Of a DNA stretch of 64,000 nucleotides, positions 5,282 to 14,060 are shown one piece after another. Below the pieces are notes generated by a model. The model worked only from the letters and a program-made list of their open reading frames with translations. It ran no database searches and was not told the DNA's origin. Position 1 is the stretch's first letter. Each line of letters opens with the position of its first letter. A program made the position numbers and the translations under genes. Source of the stretch: Streptomyces sp. NA02950 (lineage in GTDB: Bacteria > Actinomycetota > Actinomycetes > Streptomycetales > Streptomycetaceae); NCBI RefSeq assembly GCF_013364155.1, contig NZ_CP054916.1, positions 7,346,001 to 7,410,000 of the forward strand, read 5' to 3'.

Positions 5282-5938
5282 TCATGAGCGGTCGGCCGCG
5301 ACCTCCAGATGCGGCAGGTAGTGGTCCATGCGGTCCCGCTTGGTGCGCAGATAGGTGATGTTCTCCTCGCGCGGCGGGGTCAGCAGCGGAACCTGCTCGC
5401 TGACGTCGATGCCGTGGCGCAGCAGCGCCTCCCGCTTGAGCGGGTTGTTGGACAGCAGCCGCACCGACCGGACCTCGAGGTCGTGCAGCATCTCCGCCGC
5501 CACCTGGTAGTCGCGGGCGTCGGCGGGCAGTCCGAGGGCGAGGTTGGCCTCGACGGTGTCCATCCCCTCCGCCTGGAGCTGCATCGCCTGCAACTTGGGG
5601 AGCAGGCCGATACCCCGGCCCTCATGGCCCCGGAGGTAGATCAGAATGCCGCGGCCCTCGCGGGTGATGGTGTTCAGCGCGGCGGAGAGCTGATCCCCGC
5701 ACTCGCAGTGCTTGGAGCCGAAGGCATCTCCGGTCAGGCACTCCGAATGCAGTCGGGTAAGGACGTCCTCACCTTCGACATCACCGTATACCAGGGCTAT
5801 TTGTTCGTCCCCGCGATTGAGGTCGAGGTAGCCGACGGCGCGGAATTCGCCGTACACGGTGGACAGTTGGAGATTCACCACGCGCTTGGCACCCGCGGTG
5901 CGAGCGCTGGGGTCGAACACGCTATCACTTACTGTCAT
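5282..5938 (-). CDS. ribA: GTP cyclohydrolase II homologue with Met at the active-site Tyr position (SCO6655 type)
   Basis: A 218-residue GTP cyclohydrolase II. Zinc ligands are Cys67, Cys78 and Cys80 (HSECLTGD, HCECGD), and the catalytic loop is RGHEGRGIGLL at 103-113. Aligned with E. coli RibA, the active-site Tyr105 (KIRAY) is replaced by Met119 (KLQAM). From memory, published work on the S. coelicolor paralogue SCO6655 showed that Met here makes the enzyme stop at the formylated pyrimidine (FAPy) instead of releasing formate. The predicted product is therefore 2-amino-5-formylamino-6-ribosylamino-pyrimidinone phosphate, as with archaeal GTP cyclohydrolase III. It is divergent from a creatininase-family gene that could remove the formyl group. 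The start is an apparent leaderless ATG. Confidence 0.93.
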   Translation of the reverse strand: MTVSDSVFDPSARTAGAKRVVNLQLSTVYGEFRAVGYLDLNRGDEQIALVYGDVEGEDVLTRLHSECLTGDAFGSKHCECGDQLSAALNTITREGRGILIYLRGHEGRGIGLLPKLQAMQLQAEGMDTVEANLALGLPADARDYQVAAEMLHDLEVRSVRLLSNNPLKREALLRHGIDVSEQVPLLTPPREENITYLRTKRDRMDHYLPHLEVAADRS

Positions 5939-5944
5939 GTCCCG

Positions 5945-5950
5945 ATCCTA
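5945..5950 (-). promoter_or_regulatory. -10 box of a leaderless ribA-type transcript
   Basis: On the minus strand TAGGAT is followed by exactly six bases and then the ATG of the GTP cyclohydrolase gene at 5938. The transcript would start at the A of ATG, and there is no Shine-Dalgarno sequence. No convincing -35 is visible. Confidence 0.6.
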
Positions 5951-6037
5951 TCTGGCAAACTGCCTGCGGTGTAGGTGAAAATGGCGAGCGCGTATCAACA
6001 CGTTGCCCCGGTGTACGAGCGAAAGGCCCCAAAAAAC

Positions 6038-6790
6038 ATGAGCAGTTCGGGAACGCGACCACAGGTCACGGATCTTCTGCCGAGGGACACGACGGAGGAC
6101 GTCCGGGCCCGGGGAGCCCGGGTCGCCGTCCTGCCCGTGGGGAGCTTCGAACAGCACGGCGCCGGACTTCCCCTGATCACCGACACGGTGGTGGCCTGCG
6201 CCATCGCCGGTGAGATCGCCGCGGCCCACCCGGTGCTGGCGCTCCCCCCGATCACCGTCTCCTGTTCGCACGAGCACGCGGACTGGCCGGGAACGGTCAG
6301 CATTTCCGCCGCCACGCTGCATGCCGTCGTCCGCGACATCGCCGATTCGCTGCGGGCCTCCGGTATCCACGCGCTGGCCGTGATCAACGGGCATGGCGGT
6401 AATTACGTGCTGCGGAACGTGGTTCAGGAATCCGCGGGCACCGGTATCCGTATGGCACTTTTCCCGGGCTCGGCCGACTGGACGGCCGCACGTGAGAGGG
6501 CCGGAGTACAGACGTCGTCCAACAGTGATATGCATGCGGGAGAAGTGGAGACATCCATCCTCTTGCAAGTCCGTCCAGAACTCGTCCGGCCCGGCCAGGA
6601 AAAGGCCGACTGGATGGCGGATGACCGGAAGCATCTGCTCACCCTCGGTATGTCCGCCTATACGGAGACCGGGGTCATAGGCCGCCCCTCCCTGGCGTCC
6701 GCCGAAAAGGGAAAGGAACTTCTCGCCGGTCTCGTCGATTGCTTCGATGAGTATCTCTCCTTGCTCGGCGCCCGGGAGGAGACGCGATGA
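6038..6790 (+). CDS. Creatininase-family amidohydrolase, ArfB-like
   Basis: A 250-residue creatininase-fold hydrolase counted from ATG 6038, which has a GAAAGG site upstream; GTG 5975 and ATG 5981 are in-frame alternatives. Metal-site motifs are complete: GSFEQHGAGLPLITD (Glu38, His40, Asp49), HEHADWPGT, NGHGGN (His119) and the GEVETS pair (Glu169, Glu171). The family includes creatininase, MftE and archaeal ArfB, the formamide hydrolase that converts FAPy to the diamino pyrimidine. The gene is divergent from a Met-type GTP cyclohydrolase predicted to make FAPy, and its stop overlaps the start of a RibD-type reductase (ATGA). FAPy deformylation is therefore the best-supported role, though inferred from context. 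Confidence 0.85.
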   Translation: MSSSGTRPQVTDLLPRDTTEDVRARGARVAVLPVGSFEQHGAGLPLITDTVVACAIAGEIAAAHPVLALPPITVSCSHEHADWPGTVSISAATLHAVVRDIADSLRASGIHALAVINGHGGNYVLRNVVQESAGTGIRMALFPGSADWTAARERAGVQTSSNSDMHAGEVETSILLQVRPELVRPGQEKADWMADDRKHLLTLGMSAYTETGVIGRPSLASAEKGKELLAGLVDCFDEYLSLLGAREETR

Positions 6791-7842
6791 CGGACCGCAC
6801 CGCCGTGCTCGACGCGGCGCGCGCATGGGAGCTGCTGCGCGCGGTCCGGACCGGGGCGGAGGCCGGGGCGGCCGGTCTGGTCCGGGGCGCGGACGGGACG
6901 TACCGGTGGCGGCAGCCCGCCTCGTCCGAAGCCGAGGAGCTGGCCGAGCGCTATCTGCCGCTGTGCCTGGCCGGACCGCGTCTGGTGGTGGCCCAGCTCG
7001 GCCAGAGCCTGGACGGTTTCATCGCCACCCGCACCGGCGACGCCGACTACGTCACAGGTGAGGAGGACCGCCGCCATCTGCACCGGCTGCGGGCGCTCAC
7101 CGACGCGGTGCTCGTCGGCGCCGGGACCGCGGCCGCCGACGACCCCCAACTGACGGTCCGCGCCTGCACCGGTGAGCATCCGGTGCGTGTTGTTGTCGAT
7201 CCGCATGGCCGGGTTCCCCTCACTCGCCGGGTGTTCACGGACGGGTCAGCGCCCACACTGTGGGTGGTGGCCGCCGACGGTGAGCGACCGGCCGCCCCGG
7301 ACGGCGTGCAGGTGCTGACGCTGCCGGACCGCGACGCGTTCGCCCCCCACCGCCTGGTGGAGGAACTCACGCGGCGCGGCCTGGGCCGGATACTGGTCGA
7401 GGGCGGCGGGGTGACCGTGTCCCGCTTTCTGCACGAGCGGGCGCTGCACCGGCTCTACGTCACCGTGGCGCCCGTCCTGATCGGCGACGGTGTCCCCGGA
7501 CTCCGGTTCGCCGGTACCCCGGTGCTGCGGGACGCGCTGCGTCCGCCCGTGCGCCGCGGTGTCCTCGGCGAGGACACCCTCTTCGAACTCGACCTGGGGA
7601 CGCCGCAGTCCGGCGATCCACTGGCCGATGAGCACCGCGATACCGGGCAGGCTCGCCGCGAAGGTGAGCACCCCGTACACCACGGCGACCGACAGCCCCT
7701 GGCCCGCGCCGAGGCCCGCGGCGCCGAACGCCCAGGCAGTGACGCCCTCCCGGGGGCCCCAGCCGCCGACGTTCAGTGGCAGCGCCATGGCGATCAGGGC
7801 CAGCACCAGCAGCGGCACCAGCGCGGCGACCGGCGCGGTTGA
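6787..7842 (+). CDS. RibD C-terminal-type pyrimidine reductase, run-on 3' end
   Basis: Real homology covers residues 1 to about 270: a family-specific N-terminal segment of some 60 residues, then the dihydrofolate-reductase-like RibD C-terminal fold with QSLDGFIATRTGD, VLVGAGTAAADDPQLTVR and VEGGGVTVSRFL. There is no zinc deaminase domain, so it resembles archaeal/fungal reductases that act on the diamino ribosylamino intermediate before deamination. ATG 6787 overlaps the creatininase stop. After FELDLG (about 7597) the frame continues 245 nt into sequence that is antisense to the flippase gene. The normal stop has apparently been lost, and about 80 C-terminal residues are non-homologous. The annotated end is the first in-frame stop. 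Confidence 0.8.
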   Translation: MTDRTAVLDAARAWELLRAVRTGAEAGAAGLVRGADGTYRWRQPASSEAEELAERYLPLCLAGPRLVVAQLGQSLDGFIATRTGDADYVTGEEDRRHLHRLRALTDAVLVGAGTAAADDPQLTVRACTGEHPVRVVVDPHGRVPLTRRVFTDGSAPTLWVVAADGERPAAPDGVQVLTLPDRDAFAPHRLVEELTRRGLGRILVEGGGVTVSRFLHERALHRLYVTVAPVLIGDGVPGLRFAGTPVLRDALRPPVRRGVLGEDTLFELDLGTPQSGDPLADEHRDTGQARREGEHPVHHGDRQPLARAEARGAERPGSDALPGAPAADVQWQRHGDQGQHQQRHQRGDRRG

Positions 7843-8553
7843 CCCCGCGGCCCGCGCCGCCAGCACGAACATGGCCACATGCCCGGTCAGCACCACCACC
7901 GAGGCCACCGCCACCCCCGGCCAGCTGCCGCGGGCCAGCAGCCCGCGGCGCGCCTCGGCCAGCGCGCCGCGGAGCGCCCGCCGCCCCCGGGAGGGCCCGG
8001 CCGCTCCGCGCCGCCGCGGCCACACCACCAGCGCCACCAGTCCGGCCGCCACCACGGCCAGGACGTTTACGGCGCCCGGGGCCGCGGCCACCCGCCCGGC
8101 CACCCGGCCGGTCGCCTCCAGCGCCACCGCGGGGTGCGCCAGCAGCAGCACCACCCCCACCGCGATCAGCACCACCTGGCCCGCGACCCGCTCCAGCACC
8201 ACCGCGCGCACCCCCCGCCCGACATCACCGGCGCTACGGCCGTGCCGCACCGCGCGGTGCACATCGCCCAGCACCCCGCCCGGCAGCGCCGCGTTGAGGA
8301 ACAGCGAACGGTAGTAGTCGGCCACGGCCCGGCCGAGCGGCAGCCGGATCCGCAGCCCCCGTGCCACCAGACACCAGCGCCACGCACTGAACACCGTGGT
8401 GAGCAGCCCCAGTCCGAGCGCGCCCAGCAGCGTCGGCCCGTCGATCCTGCGCAGCCCGTCCGTGAACGCGCCCGTGCCCAGCCGCCACATCAGCACCACG
8501 AGGATGGCCGCACCGGCCACCGCACCGAGCCGCGCCCGGACCGCCCCGCTCAT
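7246..8553 (-). CDS. Lysylphosphatidylglycerol-synthase-type (UPF0104) flippase-like membrane protein, run-on 3' end
   Basis: ATG 8553 overlaps the methyltransferase stop (ATGA). Residues 1 to about 315 form a hydrophobic protein with around eight membrane segments. It has family marks such as the YYRSLFLNAALPGGVLGDVHRAVRHGR segment and the LPLNVGGWGPREG loop found in LPG-synthase transmembrane/UPF0104 proteins. After WIAGLR (near 7600) the frame keeps going antisense to the RibD-type gene until 7246, adding about 118 residues of no recognisable origin. Members flip or build lipid-linked compounds. Here it sits with a glycosyltransferase and a CDP-alcohol phosphotransferase, which fits a lipid-anchored or exported product. 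Substrate unknown. Confidence 0.8.
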   Translation of the reverse strand: MSGAVRARLGAVAGAAILVVLMWRLGTGAFTDGLRRIDGPTLLGALGLGLLTTVFSAWRWCLVARGLRIRLPLGRAVADYYRSLFLNAALPGGVLGDVHRAVRHGRSAGDVGRGVRAVVLERVAGQVVLIAVGVVLLLAHPAVALEATGRVAGRVAAAPGAVNVLAVVAAGLVALVVWPRRRGAAGPSRGRRALRGALAEARRGLLARGSWPGVAVASVVVLTGHVAMFVLAARAAGSTAPVAALVPLLVLALIAMALPLNVGGWGPREGVTAWAFGAAGLGAGQGLSVAVVYGVLTFAASLPGIAVLIGQWIAGLRRPQVEFEEGVLAEDTAAHGRTQRVPQHRGTGEPESGDTVADQDGRHGDVEPVQRPLVQKAGHGHPAALDQYPAQAAPREFLHQAVGGERVAVRQRQHLHAVRGGRSLTVGGHHPQCGR

Positions 8554-9388
8554 GCCGCCGCCTCCACCGGTCCGGGAAGTGCCAGCAGATCGCGGTGGTG
8601 CACCACCGCCCGCAACCCGCCCGTCTCGCACACCGCCAGCCGGCGGCGCAGATACGCGTCGGCGCGCGCCCCGAGGTCCGACCGCTGCTCCTTGGCCGCA
8701 CCGACCCAGCCCCGCAGCCACTCCGCCGTCAGCGCGGACTCCTCCGGGCCGAGATGCCACGGACTGCAATGCGTCCGGACCACCACTCCCTGCCGCTCGA
8801 ACGACGCGGTGGCCACCGTCACCGCGTCCGGACCCAGCAGCACACCACGGCGCTGATGGGCGTTGAACGCGTCCAGGATCTCGTCGTCCAGCGGATCGGC
8901 CGGGGTCAGCTCGACCCGTCCCACCACCGAGAGCGCCAGCAGCACCGGACAACCCGCCTCCGCACACAGCGCCGCGAGCCGGTCCACCTCCTCACGGGTG
9001 AGCACATCCAGCAGCGCCGAGGCGGTCACCAGCGAGGCACCGGCCAGATCACCGGCGGTCAGCCGGGACAGGTCACCGCGCCGCGTCTCGACGGTGACCG
9101 GGGTGCCGTCGGCCGCGCACGGCGGCTGTTCGGCGGCCCGCTGGAGCAGCCGCGGATCCCGGTCGTGCAGCACCCACCGCTGTGCACCGTTCAGCCGGGG
9201 CGCCAGCCAGCGGCCCATGGCCCCGGTGCCACAGCCCAGGTCGTGCACCACCAGCGGACCGTCCGCAGCCGGCCGCGCCGCCAGATGCGCCCGCAGTGAA
9301 TCCACCAGCTCCGGTGCGCGGGCCGCCGCGTCGGCACCCTCGCGCAACTCCAGCCAGTCGGGGGTGTAGCGCGGTGTGTCGGTCGCCG

Positions 9389-9392
<4 letters not shown>
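8550..9392 (-). CDS. Class I SAM-dependent methyltransferase
   Basis: A 280-residue protein from GTG 9392, whose start overlaps the glycosyltransferase stop as GTGA; an upstream in-frame ATG lies inside that gene. Motif I is VVHDLGCGTGAMGRWL, followed by the acidic LHDRDPR that binds the SAM ribose and a RGDLSRL motif. A variable C-terminal region ends in a DLLALPGPVEAA tail. It is the second of four tightly overlapping minus-strand genes (PTPS, glycosyltransferase, methyltransferase, flippase), all of which must act on one pathway. Whether it methylates N, O or C is not visible. Confidence 0.85.
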
Positions 9393-10941
<1,549 letters not shown>

Positions 10942-10990: not shown

Positions 10991-11968
10991 TCAGGGCCCG
11001 TACAGCACACGGTGGCACAGCCCCGGGAGCTCACCCGAAGCAAGCCCCGGCAACACCCGCGGCAGCTCCTCGAAGGCGCATTCCCCGCTCACCAGCGCGT
11101 CGAAGGAGGAGTCGGCCAGCAGCTCGAGCGCCAGCGCCAGCCGGTCGGCGTAGCCGCGGCGGGGGCCCCGGTTCGGCGACACCGTGCCCACCTGGCTGCT
11201 GCGCACGGTCAGCCGCCGCGAGTGGAACGCCTCGCCGAGCGGCAGGCTGATCCGCCGGTCGCCGTACCAGCTCAGCTCCACCACGGTGCCCTCCGGGGCG
11301 AGCAGTTCCAGCGAGCGGGCGAGCCCGGCCTCGGTGGCGCTGGCGTGCACCACAAGATCGCAGCCGTCCGCCGCGTCCTCGGGCAGCGCGAACTCCACCC
11401 CGAGCGCCGCCGCGACACCGGCGCGCGCCGGATCCGCGTCCACCAGCTGCACCCGTACGGCCGGATAGCGGGCGAGCACGGCGGCGACACTCGCCCCCAC
11501 CATCCCGGCCCCCACCACCGCGATCCGGTCGCCGAGCAGCGGCGCGGCGTCCCACGCGGCGTTCACCGCGGTCTCCACCGTCCCGGCCAGCACCGCCCGC
11601 GCGGCGGGCACGTTCTCCGGCACCACGGTCACCGCGCTCGCCGGGACCACATAGCGGGTCTGATGCGGATACAGACAGAACACCGTCCGCCCCAGCAGCT
11701 CCCGGGGCCCCCGCTCCACCTCACCGACGCTGAGATAGCCGTACTTCACCGGCGCCGGAAAAGTGCCCTCCTGGAACGGCGCGCGCATCGCGGAGTGCTG
11801 GCTCTCCGGGACCTCGCCCCGGAACACCAGGGTCTCCGTACCGCGGCTCACACCGGAGTACAGGGTGCGCACCACCACCTCGCCGTCGGCGGGCTCGGGC
11901 AGCGCCACCTCCCGTATCTCGCCGTGGCCGGGGGAGCGGAGCCAGAAGGCGCGGGCGACGCGCTCCAT
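10991..11968 (-). CDS. MDR-type dehydrogenase (zinc-binding dehydrogenase family)
   Basis: A 325-residue medium-chain dehydrogenase from ATG 11968, which has a GGAGG site 6 nt upstream. The N-terminal GroES-like half includes SGVSRGTETLVFRGEVP. The nucleotide-binding half has VVGAGMVGASVAAVLARYP followed by LVDADPAR, an acidic end of the second strand that favours NAD(H). The usual catalytic Cys-Gly-His zinc motif of alcohol dehydrogenases is not evident, as in the BchC/quinone-reductase-like branch. It is transcribed like the PTPS gene with a 100-nt gap, and is divergent from the CDP-alcohol phosphotransferase. Probably a redox step of the same cluster; substrate unknown. Confidence 0.85.
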   Translation of the reverse strand: MERVARAFWLRSPGHGEIREVALPEPADGEVVVRTLYSGVSRGTETLVFRGEVPESQHSAMRAPFQEGTFPAPVKYGYLSVGEVERGPRELLGRTVFCLYPHQTRYVVPASAVTVVPENVPAARAVLAGTVETAVNAAWDAAPLLGDRIAVVGAGMVGASVAAVLARYPAVRVQLVDADPARAGVAAALGVEFALPEDAADGCDLVVHASATEAGLARSLELLAPEGTVVELSWYGDRRISLPLGEAFHSRRLTVRSSQVGTVSPNRGPRRGYADRLALALELLADSSFDALVSGECAFEELPRVLPGLASGELPGLCHRVLYGP

Positions 11969-11990
11969 CGACGTCCTCCAGAAGGATCGC

Positions 11991-12006
11991 GCTGAACAGC
12001 TGAACA
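11991..12006. repeat. Tandem 8-bp repeat in a divergent promoter region
   Basis: GCTGAACA occurs twice in direct succession in the 125-bp gap between the divergent MDR dehydrogenase and CDP-alcohol phosphotransferase genes. It could be a pair of operator half-sites that coordinates the two arms of the cluster. No regulator gene sits in the cluster itself. Confidence 0.3.
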
Positions 12007-12093
12007 ATCGGGCTGCGGCACACGTACGGATAGCCAGCCGCGCTCACGGTACGCGGCACTCATCAACTCCGCCACACAGCCGGAGGGTGCACG

Positions 12094-12825
12094 GTGGCAA
12101 CCCTGAATGACACGTACAACGCCAAACCGCTGCGACAGGAGACCGCGGCGGGGGCGGGAGCACAGCTCGCCCTGCTCGCCCTGCTCGGCACCGCACTCGG
12201 CCTCGGCCCCGCGGGATGGCTGACCGGACTGGTCTTCGCCCTCGCCACCTGGGCGGTGCTCAACCGCGCCGTGTCCCGTTCCTGGCTGCGCTCGTTCGGG
12301 GCGGCCAACCGCGTCACCCTGGCCCGGGCCACCCTGGTCGGCGGGGTGACCGCGCTGGTCGCCGACTCCTTCCAGAGCCCGCCGCAGGTCACGGTGCTGG
12401 TCGCGCTCACCGCGGTGGCCCTGATCCTGGACGCGGTGGACGGCAAGGTGGCGCGCCGCACCGGTACCGCGTCCCCGCTGGGCGCCCGCTTCGACATGGA
12501 AGTGGACGCGTTCCTCATTCTGGTGCTCAGCGTCTACGTGGCCACCTCGCTCGGCCCCTGGGTGCTGCTGATCGGCGGTATGCGCTACGCGTTCGTGGTG
12601 GTGTCCCGGTTCCTGCCGTGGCTGCGCGGATCACTGCCGCCGAGCACGGCCCGCAAGACGGTGGCCGCACTCCAGGGCGTCGCCCTGCTGGCGGCCGGGG
12701 CCGCGATCCTTCCGCGGCCCGTGGCCCTCGCCGAAGTGCTGCTGGCCCTGGCCCTGCTGAGCTGGTCCTTCACCCGCGACATCGGGTGGCTGTGGCACAC
12801 CCGCCAACAGCGCGCGGAGGGCTGA
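12094..12825 (+). CDS. CDP-alcohol phosphatidyltransferase family membrane enzyme
   Basis: A 243-residue membrane protein with GTG start at 12094 and a GGAGGG site 6-7 nt upstream. The complete CDP-alcohol phosphotransferase motif D-x2-DG-x2-AR-x8-G-x3-D-x3-D is visible (from LDAVDGKVARR to GARFDMEVD). It is flanked by five or six hydrophobic helices. The family transfers a phosphoalcohol from a CDP-activated lipid or alcohol. It is divergent from the MDR dehydrogenase and belongs by position to the GTP-cyclohydrolase cluster. It could attach a polar alcohol to a lipid, in line with the flippase-like gene, but neither substrate is known. Confidence 0.88.
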   Translation: MATLNDTYNAKPLRQETAAGAGAQLALLALLGTALGLGPAGWLTGLVFALATWAVLNRAVSRSWLRSFGAANRVTLARATLVGGVTALVADSFQSPPQVTVLVALTAVALILDAVDGKVARRTGTASPLGARFDMEVDAFLILVLSVYVATSLGPWVLLIGGMRYAFVVVSRFLPWLRGSLPPSTARKTVAALQGVALLAAGAAILPRPVALAEVLLALALLSWSFTRDIGWLWHTRQQRAEG

Positions 12826-12944: not shown

Positions 12945-14060
12945 CTACGCCGTGGGCGTGCTCCAGGCGCGCACCTGCTCGACGACGGCGGTGACGTGCT
13001 CGATGGGCGTGGTCTTGACGATGCCGTGTCCCAGGTTGAACACGAACGGCCCCCCGCTCAGGCCGCGCAGGATGCGATCCGTCTCGGCGTGGAGCGCGGG
13101 GCCGCCGGCGATCAGCAGCTGGGGATCGAGGTTGCCCTGCACGCAACGGCCCAGCCCGCGCTGGAGGGTGCGCGCGGCCCAGTCGAGGGGAACCGTGGAG
13201 TCCAGGCCGATGCAGTCCGCACCGGTCGCCTCGGCGAAGCCGTTGTAGGAGAGCCCGGCGCCCCGGGGGAACGCGATGACGGGAACGTCCGGGTACTGCG
13301 CCTTCAGCGCGCTGATGATGGCGGCGGCCGGCTTGACGCACCAGCGGTCGAAGAGGACGTCCGGAAGCACCCCGGCCCAGCTGTCGAACAACTGGACCGC
13401 TTCCGCGCCCGCCTCGATCTGACGGCCGAGGAACTGGATGATGGCGGTCGTCAGCAGGTCCATCAGGGGCTGGAATCCGTCGGGGTCGCTCAGCGCCCAC
13501 TGCTTGACGACGGAGTGCTCCGACGTGGCGCCGCCGCGGCCTTCGACCATGTAGGTGGCAAGGGTCCACGGTGCGCCGGCATAGCCGATCAGGGCCGTCT
13601 CGGCGGGCAGGGCGCGGGTGAGCTGACTGACCGTCTCGTAGATCGGGGCCAGTTCCTCGTGCAGGCGGGAGATGCTCAGGAACTCGGCGATGTCCGCCGA
13701 CGAGCGGACGGGCGGCGTCAACACCGGCCCCTCGCCGACCCGGTAGTCCAGGGTCTGGCCCAGTGCGGCGGCGACCTGCGGAAGGTCCGCGAACACGATG
13801 GCGGCGTCGAGCGGGAAGCGGCGCAGCGGCTGCAGGGTGACCTCGACGGCGTGCTCGGGGGTGGTGCAGAGCCCCACCATGCCCCCGGCCGCCTCCCGGA
13901 CCTTGTGGTACTCGGGCAGGTAGCGTCCGGCCTGCCGCATCAGCCAGACCGGCGGCCGCTCGGTCCGCTCTCCCGCGAGTGCGCGCAGGAGCAGCTTCTT
14001 GGGCTGGACACTGCCGGACCCCGGCTTCGGAACGACTGCTTCCCGGATGCCGATGTCCAC
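12945..14060 (-). CDS. hemE: Uroporphyrinogen decarboxylase
   Basis: A 371-residue UroD with both family signatures: PPVWLMRQAGRYLPEY near the N-terminus, with the substrate-binding Arg, and GYAGAPWTLATYMVEG in the middle. The end is NLGHGIVKTTPIEHV. It removes four acetate carboxyls from uroporphyrinogen III in heme and siroheme synthesis. The start is GTG 14060 with a weak AGGA site; the nearby ATG at 14070 is out of frame. Its wording (for example VQGNLDPQLLIAGG) looks more like alphaproteobacterial UroD than the usual actinobacterial copy, and no other heme gene is near. It may be a second, transferred hemE; that is a judgement from memory of the families. Confidence 0.9.
   Translation of the reverse strand: MDIGIREAVVPKPGSGSVQPKKLLLRALAGERTERPPVWLMRQAGRYLPEYHKVREAAGGMVGLCTTPEHAVEVTLQPLRRFPLDAAIVFADLPQVAAALGQTLDYRVGEGPVLTPPVRSSADIAEFLSISRLHEELAPIYETVSQLTRALPAETALIGYAGAPWTLATYMVEGRGGATSEHSVVKQWALSDPDGFQPLMDLLTTAIIQFLGRQIEAGAEAVQLFDSWAGVLPDVLFDRWCVKPAAAIISALKAQYPDVPVIAFPRGAGLSYNGFAEATGADCIGLDSTVPLDWAARTLQRGLGRCVQGNLDPQLLIAGGPALHAETDRILRGLSGGPFVFNLGHGIVKTTPIEHVTAVVEQVRAWSTPTA

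Follow-up and report, generated by a model that had tools for sequence, protein, structure and literature searches.

We analyzed a 64,000-nucleotide stretch of contig NZ_CP054916.1 of Streptomyces sp. NA02950 (positions 7,346,001 to 7,410,000), hereafter called the window, to which all coordinates below refer. A gene of the GTP cyclohydrolase II (GCH II) family, which we call ribA, lies at 5282..5938 on the minus strand and encodes a protein of 218 amino acids. Its PF00925 domain scored 211.8 bits in a profile search, and the zinc-site cysteines C67, C78, and C80 are kept in 131 of 131 RibA rows, the window protein included. While the domain and the three cysteines are those of GCH II, the Tyr found at residue 105 of the E. 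coli enzyme (chain 2bz0) is absent, and Met119 aligns at this position. From this residue, the window RibA is predicted to release the formylated pyrimidine FAPy.

The divergent gene at 5975..6790 (plus strand), with 36 bp between the two listed starts, encodes a creatininase-fold hydrolase that is a predicted FAPy deformylase. The protein scored 212.3 bits against PF02633 (cut-off, 31.3), which together with its metal-ligand motifs places it in the creatininase superfamily; E59, Q60, H61, G62, T69, D70, E100, and H101, as well as the NGHGGN motif at 138 to 143, H187, G189, E190, and E192, are invariant in all 80 Streptomyces relatives. The true start of the hydrolase is uncertain because these relatives align from residues 1 to 23 of the window protein (median, 15). 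Its best curated model was MftE (TIGR03964), at 132.6 bits and below the cut-off of 172. The expected creatininase fold would not by itself tell a deformylase from a peptidase. Membership in the ArfB family was rejected by score, the curated ArfB model (NF033501) giving 30.6 bits against a cut-off of 180; the same model gave 21.9 bits for a hydrolase relative from the family f62 cluster L266. Each of the hydrolase matches in L248, L273, and L293 is interrupted by a stop (query residue 15 or 268) that lies beyond the conserved region, and a TGA was flagged in those of G225 and G499.

The third gene (6787..7842, plus strand) encodes a RibD_C-type reductase, whose ATG at 6787 overlaps the hydrolase stop codon by 4 bases (ATGA). 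PF01872 matched residues 66 to 235 at 132.6 bits, and the domain profile search found no deaminase domain in the protein. The reductase aligns to 2azn at an E value of 2e-18, and as a RibD_C protein without a deaminase domain it has the architecture of the archaeal reductases of TIGR01508, against which it scored 110.5 bits, below the cut-off of 186.45. Homology extends to about 7600; beyond this point the frame, open to 7842, runs antisense to a neighboring membrane-protein gene.

Conservation with this set extends to six more genes, ending at 12825. On the minus strand are an LPG_synthase_TM membrane protein (7246..8553, with a likely start at 8553, homology to about 7600, and a frame that continues to 7246 antisense to the reductase), a SAM methyltransferase (Methyltransf_25; 8550..9461), a family 4 glycosyltransferase (GT4; 9389..10495), a PTPS/QueD-like T-fold protein (10492..10890), and a BchC-like zinc-type dehydrogenase (10991..12007, likely start 11968). 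A CDP-alcohol phosphatidyltransferase follows on the plus strand (12094..12825), and in some related clusters this transferase is fused to or lies beside a sulfatase-like domain. The PTPS-like protein is a close relative of SCO6650 (PDB 3d7j) and carries the signature FGPAQ, which assigns it to the PTPS-IV subfamily of COG0720; at the positions of the PTPS-I motif CxxxHGH, Ala replaces Cys and HGA replaces HGH. FGPAQ is present in 42 of 52 cluster PTPS proteins, the window protein included, while 7 of the other 10 have FGPA followed by T, S, or R and 3 lack the signature, one of them truncated. In a sample of 394 genomes of the class, 57 gave a match to PTPS of the window kind. We rejected as cluster members the genes upstream of 5282, which recur in 2 to 3 of 55 loci, and a HemE-like gene at 12945-14060, which recurs in none of the 55. 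PTPS, the dehydrogenase, and GT4 are the most constant partners across cluster loci. RibA, the hydrolase, and the reductase are the front end of a conserved orphan actinobacterial cluster, not a riboflavin module.

The initial annotation had named three genes within 5282..7600, which are indeed there, but the set continues well past this interval. Alignment bore out Met119 at the E. coli Tyr105 position, and the divergent creatininase-fold hydrolase with an intact metal site and the overlapping deaminase-less RibD-type reductase were likewise found as described. Its term "ArfB-like" holds for the fold and the probable reaction of the hydrolase but not for the family.

We examined the relationship between the RibA residue and the hydrolase in clusters picked by the PTPS gene and with RibA in view. 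All 25 genomes with the hydrolase had a non-Tyr RibA; 12 of these are Streptomyces, including the window, all with Met, and 13 belong to family f62 (Leu in 6, His in 4, Met in 2, and Gln in 1). In all 13 PTPS-picked loci without the hydrolase where RibA was seen, the residue was Tyr, and each of these loci carries a reductase gene or domain lacking the deaminase. In three f62 genomes, RibA was missing from the locus, and the hydrolase was not found anywhere in the genome at an E value of 1e-20. Two additional Tyr loci, L208 and L209, agree with the rule and stand outside the PTPS-picked count, having been found by RibA and reductase searches. We excluded L130 (RibA Tyr, PTPS and RibD_C at 29%) from the counts; this locus would fit the rule and gave no dehydrogenase, GT4, or methyltransferase match. 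L264, with a Leu RibA and no hydrolase in the fetched piece, was dismissed as an exception since the hydrolase lies elsewhere on that contig, about 13 kb away from PTPS. One exception stands: in G042, a cluster-clade hydrolase (56%) sits on a contig where no other cluster genes were found, and the genome's own cluster has the Tyr fusion. Among 80 Streptomyces loci picked by the hydrolase, RibA has Met in 79 and was not found in the truncated L105; having been chosen by the hydrolase, these loci are no independent test of co-occurrence. The non-Tyr RibAs form one clade in the RibA tree (97/86), and the pattern therefore represents one origin plus joint absences rather than 25 independent tests.

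The presence of the hydrolase tracks a non-Tyr RibA and its absence tracks Tyr, a pattern that argues that the hydrolase most likely performs the deformylation lost in non-Tyr RibA. Moreover, PTPS, the dehydrogenase, and GT4 are homologous between hydrolase-bearing and Tyr-type clusters, and the two front ends should therefore converge on a single intermediate. This homology also bears on a different role for the hydrolase, in which it would act on a later amide and FAPy with its formyl group kept would be the true intermediate of hydrolase-bearing clusters. MftE, the nearest curated family by score, is a peptidase-type creatininase, and if FAPy were kept, the loss of Tyr would be explained as well. 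However, the homologous core of the hydrolase-free Tyr-type clusters implies that their substrate should be deformylated, and FAPy retention would then mean two front ends with different products; we regard this role as unlikely.

The reductase is a less regular member of the front end. It was at the locus in just 19 of the 80 hydrolase-picked Streptomyces loci and missing from 61, and a general trio of RibA, hydrolase, and reductase was rejected for this reason. It was also missing from 8 of the 12 PTPS-picked Streptomyces loci and from the fetched pieces of 13 of 13 non-Tyr f62 clusters. The in-cluster reductase is therefore optional in Streptomyces. All 13 tested genomes without an in-cluster reductase lacked a reductase match at an E value of 1e-12; in each of the same 13, a reductase match and a deaminase match lie next to each other in inverted order, an arrangement read fully in L189. 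In Streptomyces without the in-cluster gene, reduction might occur in trans or be absent.

In other clusters, RibA and RibD_C are fused. Such fusions lie beside the dehydrogenase, PTPS, and GT4 in L208, L258, and L259, and the L209 fusion has the same neighbors within the limits of its contig. The reductase domains of the L258 and L259 Tyr-type RibA fusions form the sister group of the window reductase (98/87). All 120 matches listed for the L258 fusion, its own record included, have both domains and Tyr; no deaminase domain was found in these 120, and 3 also have a HAD phosphatase domain. Joining RibA to a reductase without a deaminase supports reduction without deamination. Clusters with the same core genes draw their RibAs from four different parts of the RibA tree.

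The initial annotation had read the three genes as an archaeal-order entry into riboflavin synthesis, separate from the normal rib operon. A complete rib operon (RibD, RibE, RibBA with Tyr, and RibH) is present elsewhere in the genome. The comparisons fit a RibA that releases FAPy, a separate enzyme that deformylates it, and a reduction that involves no deamination, but riboflavin as the end point was rejected as the main reading because of that operon and the other genes of the cluster. None of the window cluster genes encodes a DHBP synthase, RibE, RibH, or deaminase. When the RibE, RibH, and DHBP synthase sequences of this genome served as queries, tblastn at 1e-5 gave no match in 140 cluster loci, and two deaminase domains searched in the same way gave a weak match in 2 of the 140 (L119 and L257, both f2 clusters). 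The cluster might still be an auxiliary archaeal-style entry that supplements the precursor supply of the normal rib pathway; in favor of this, the archaeal route runs through the three reactions predicted here, and riboflavin in S. meliloti needs a creatininase-family formamidase (PMC9478397). Against the existing operon, the 140-locus searches, and the constant partners PTPS, dehydrogenase, and GT4, we give this proposal very little chance. Service to coenzyme F420 or another deazaflavin also appears very unlikely. The same early pyrimidines feed F420, and PTPS-IV is mentioned, as unpublished work, in passages of one report as taking part in archaeal F420 synthesis (PMC5041015), but F420 needs a deaminated pyrimidine, and the deaminase is as scarce in the cluster loci and listed fusion matches as described above.

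We consider it likely that the cluster diverts GTP into an orphan pathway by splitting the GTP cyclohydrolase II reaction between two enzymes; the sequences show the gene content, residue pattern, fusions, and phylogeny, and from them we infer every enzymatic step and the product. RibA (Met119) would open the imidazole ring of GTP and stop at FAPy. The hydrolase would then take off the formyl group to give 2,5-diamino-6-ribosylamino-4(3H)-pyrimidinone 5'-phosphate, the product that a Tyr-type RibA would make alone. The RibD_C enzyme would convert the ribosyl side chain to ribityl without deamination, and the 2-amino group would therefore be kept. PTPS-IV, the dehydrogenase, the glycosyltransferase, and the methyltransferase would build the final product, probably of the pteridine type and perhaps exported or lipid-linked, given the membrane protein and the CDP-alcohol transferase. 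This product is probably a new vitamin-like molecule rather than vitamin B2. More tentatively, the pathway may be a widespread actinobacterial route to a new ribityl pteridine that keeps the 2-amino group and is glycosylated, methylated, and perhaps membrane anchored; such a compound would be the pterin counterpart of lumazine in riboflavin synthesis. Its front end may have been swapped several times, among a Tyr-type RibA plus reductase, a RibA-reductase fusion, and an impaired RibA complemented by a recruited formamidase.

This pathway would place PTPS-IV, the deaminase-less RibD reductase, the dehydrogenase, the glycosyltransferase, and the methyltransferase on a common orphan route, whose product could be a new cofactor or a cell envelope component. 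The sequence rule, by which a non-Tyr RibA is accompanied by the hydrolase, can be tested directly in vitro. The proposed split reaction also offers a possible answer to why Streptomyces keeps a cyclohydrolase that reportedly stops at FAPy, in that the partner hydrolase would finish the reaction.

S. coelicolor SCO6655, which presumably has Met at the switch position like the window RibA, was reportedly described by Spoonamore et al. in Biochemistry in 2006 as a FAPy-releasing GTP cyclohydrolase II. We take its locus to be that of the window RibA, since SCO6650 is matched by the window PTPS. The present analysis adds the link to the hydrolase, the Met/Leu/His/Gln spread, and the exchange with Tyr-type modules. 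The archaeal formamide hydrolase ArfB belongs to the creatininase family, and the window hydrolase shares its fold and predicted reaction but fails the curated ArfB model. Similarly, the window reductase resembles ArfC/RIB7, the archaeal/fungal 2,5-diamino-6-ribosylaminopyrimidinone reductase (e.g., 2azn), in having RibD_C without a deaminase, but falls below the curated archaeal cut-off. For the PTPS-IV subfamily of COG0720, whose FGPAQ signature the window PTPS shares (as given in passages of PMC5445326 and PMC5041015), a published neighborhood network already includes PF00925 and PF01872 (in the passages of PMC5445326). The string "creatinin" is absent from the main text of PMC5445326, and the passages of the two reports give no pathway for bacterial PTPS-IV clusters. 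Among the matches listed in a literature search, for which subscription literature was mostly outside reach, no publication joined a creatininase with a FAPy-type RibA in Streptomyces. In S. meliloti, SMc02977 (BrbF), annotated as a creatininase, deformylates FAPy (PMC9478397). BrbF, compared here by description rather than by sequence, is like the window hydrolase in its creatininase-family annotation and in the reaction predicted for the latter. However, BrbF serves riboflavin and is encoded beside MarR and CobW genes (PMC9478397), whereas the window hydrolase lies beside RibA and PTPS-IV.

The GTP cyclohydrolase II family protein (RibA; 5282-5938, minus strand) keeps all of its zinc cysteines and carries Met119 where the alignment places Tyr105 of Escherichia coli GTP cyclohydrolase II. 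The creatininase-family hydrolase (5975-6790, plus strand) has intact metal motifs, and the RibD_C reductase, which has no deaminase domain, starts at 6787 on the plus strand, inside the hydrolase stop codon. These features agree with the initial annotation, which confined the module to 5282..7600; we found nine genes, extending to 12825, that recur as one set. We chose 80 Streptomyces loci via the hydrolase, and in all 55 that exceed 20 kb, genes for RibA, the hydrolase, LPG_synthase_TM, a methyltransferase, a family 4 glycosyltransferase (GT4), a PTPS/QueD-like T-fold protein (PTPS), and a dehydrogenase stand in the same order. A CDP-alcohol transferase gene is present in 54 of the 55 and the reductase gene in 14 (19/80 of all Streptomyces loci).

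The reductase and LPG_synthase_TM genes are convergent and have no stop codons where homology ends (~7600), so that they read through antisense to each other for 597 bp (7246-7842). Such an overlap occurs in 18 of 20 reductase-bearing loci, the window counted, and measures 597 to 624 bp in 13 loci and 798 to 1,062 bp in 5; there is none in L049 and L060. A HemE (uroporphyrinogen decarboxylase) gene comes after the cluster at 12945-14060 (TIGR01464, 377.5 bits) and had no match in 55 related loci of >20 kb. A protein of 724 to 812 amino acids fusing CDP-alcohol transferase to a sulfatase-like domain was recognized by Pfam in loci L250 and L269 and by BLAST likeness in L243, L244, L249, L252, L254, L255, L256, L268, and L272, often adjoining a second methyltransferase.

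We compared the residue at the Tyr105 position with hydrolase presence in clusters picked by PTPS, a choice biased to neither RibA form. At E 1e-10, 43 of the 296 genomes searched in the class had a PTPS match (16/28 in the window's own genus), and at E 1e-20, 57/394 had one, including all 43 earlier genomes; regions were taken as 20 loci, then 20 more, then 16 more. The PTPS-bearing genomes of the 394-genome set that were examined comprised 12/20 of the own genus and 16/16 of family f62. In every PTPS-picked case with the hydrolase, RibA was non-Tyr: Met in all 12 own-genus genomes (the window, G023, G128, and nine in L287-L295) and Leu (6), His (4), Met (2), or Gln (1) in 13 f62 genomes. In the remaining f62 genomes, G403, G515, and G342, neither the locus nor its flanks held a RibA, and a hydrolase was lacking at E 1e-20. 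Where the hydrolase was absent and RibA visible, RibA was Tyr in 13/13 loci (L120, L241, L243, L244, L247, L249, L252, L254, L255, L258, L259, L268, and L274), L120 being a contig of just 3.8 kb taken from a phylum search. L208 and L209, reached via RibA and reductase searches, were further Tyr loci consistent with the 13, and all 15 carried a reductase gene or domain, although the L209 contig ends within it. Other PTPS loci, whose fetched pieces held neither RibA nor a hydrolase of the cluster clade, were left out.

A genome-wide search gave a close hydrolase copy (at least 56%) for each of the 13 non-Tyr f62 genomes; the 13 Tyr genomes other than G042 gave none at E 1e-20 or just 37 to 39% copies. 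The one Tyr genome with a close copy, G042, is an exception to the pattern: its own cluster has a Tyr RibA-RibD_C fusion, and its hydrolase (56%, cluster clade) is on contig C349 (L212, 14391-15032), where no other cluster genes were found.

In a tree of 49 chosen RibA rows, the 24 non-Tyr rows formed one clade (97/86) adjoining the group that contains the RibBA type, with the Tyr-type cluster RibAs placed elsewhere. The hydrolases likewise formed a single clade (23 rows, 100/98), the G042 copy inside. Given these two single clades, one switch away from Tyr is the probable history, which means that the counts are not independent trials. The weight of the pattern is its fit: loss of Tyr tracks the hydrolase, after which different residues occupy the position and no return to Tyr is seen. 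Among 120 listed database relatives of one non-Tyr RibA, compared as protein records, the position held His (110), Gln (6), Asn (2), Cys (1), or Leu (1), and never Tyr. The hydrolase is very likely a deformylase of FAPy, the formylated pyrimidine. It had been placed in the ArfB family, but it falls under the cut-off for both the ArfB and MftE models.

In L208, L258, and L259, RibA and RibD_C form a single protein adjoining the dehydrogenase, PTPS, and GT4 genes; L209 shows the same arrangement up to the contig end. The L258 and L259 reductase domains are sister to the window reductase (98/87). A search with the L258 fusion listed 120 matches, one of them the fusion itself; all had RibA with Tyr plus RibD_C, and none had a deaminase domain. 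Among the named carriers are Arsenicicoccus, Phycicoccus, Georgenia, and Arthrobacter; P0229, which its source labels Vibrio cholerae, is probably from a mislabeled actinobacterial contig. The simplest reading of the fusion is that the enzymes are consecutive and that the reductase would act directly on the RibA product, with the 2-amino group retained. The window reductase falls below the cut-off of the curated archaeal reductase model, so its choice of substrate is a prediction; reduction without deamination is likely. Three of the 120 (P0129, P0132, and P0209) are triple fusions with an additional HAD phosphatase domain, which suggests dephosphorylation of the ribityl compound as the next step. 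In the more distant family f15, a row of RibD_C, dehydrogenase, PTPS, and GT4 was found in 8/8 loci. In the six with called genes (L121, L122, L123, L125, L127, and L128), a methyltransferase gene follows and a FolB-like (dihydroneopterin aldolase) gene is divergent, the L121 copy being identified by Pfam and NCBIfam.

The module of the initial annotation is real and its chemistry was well judged, but riboflavin, the end point assigned there, is highly improbable. The 9.77-Mb genome, of Streptomyces type, has its own grouped RibD, RibE, RibBA (Tyr), and RibH, and its RibE, RibH, and DHBP-synthase domain had no match in 140 cluster loci (tblastn, 1e-5). Two deaminase domains gave weak matches (E 2e-6 and 9e-6) in two of those loci, L119 (13212-13544) and L257 (3200-3532), both PTPS clusters of family f2 where neither RibA nor reductase was seen. 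Caution is called for here, as these two clusters may involve a deaminase. All 6 Streptomyces genomes tested that carry the in-cluster reductase have a canonical housekeeping RibD, whereas all 13 tested that lack the in-cluster gene also lack the canonical RibD and have reductase and deaminase matches in inverted order (L188 and L189 illustrate the difference).

The window PTPS carries FGPAQ, the signature of PTPS-IV, and is a close relative of Streptomyces coelicolor SCO6650 (structure 3d7j). From this likeness we infer that the window cluster would be the counterpart of the SCO6650-SCO6655 locus. In a 2006 study, SCO6655 reportedly released FAPy, its Met residue being responsible. The PTPS-IV neighborhood network as published already contains PF00925 and PF01872 (PMC5445326), and a PTPS-IV role in archaeal F420 is mentioned as unpublished (PMC5041015). 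A precedent is BrbF of Sinorhizobium meliloti, which carries a creatininase annotation and deformylates FAPy (PMC9478397, whose main text makes no mention of Streptomyces), a route repeated in a review (PMC13028884). Archaea and fungi follow the same order as predicted here, with reduction while the 2-amino group is still present.
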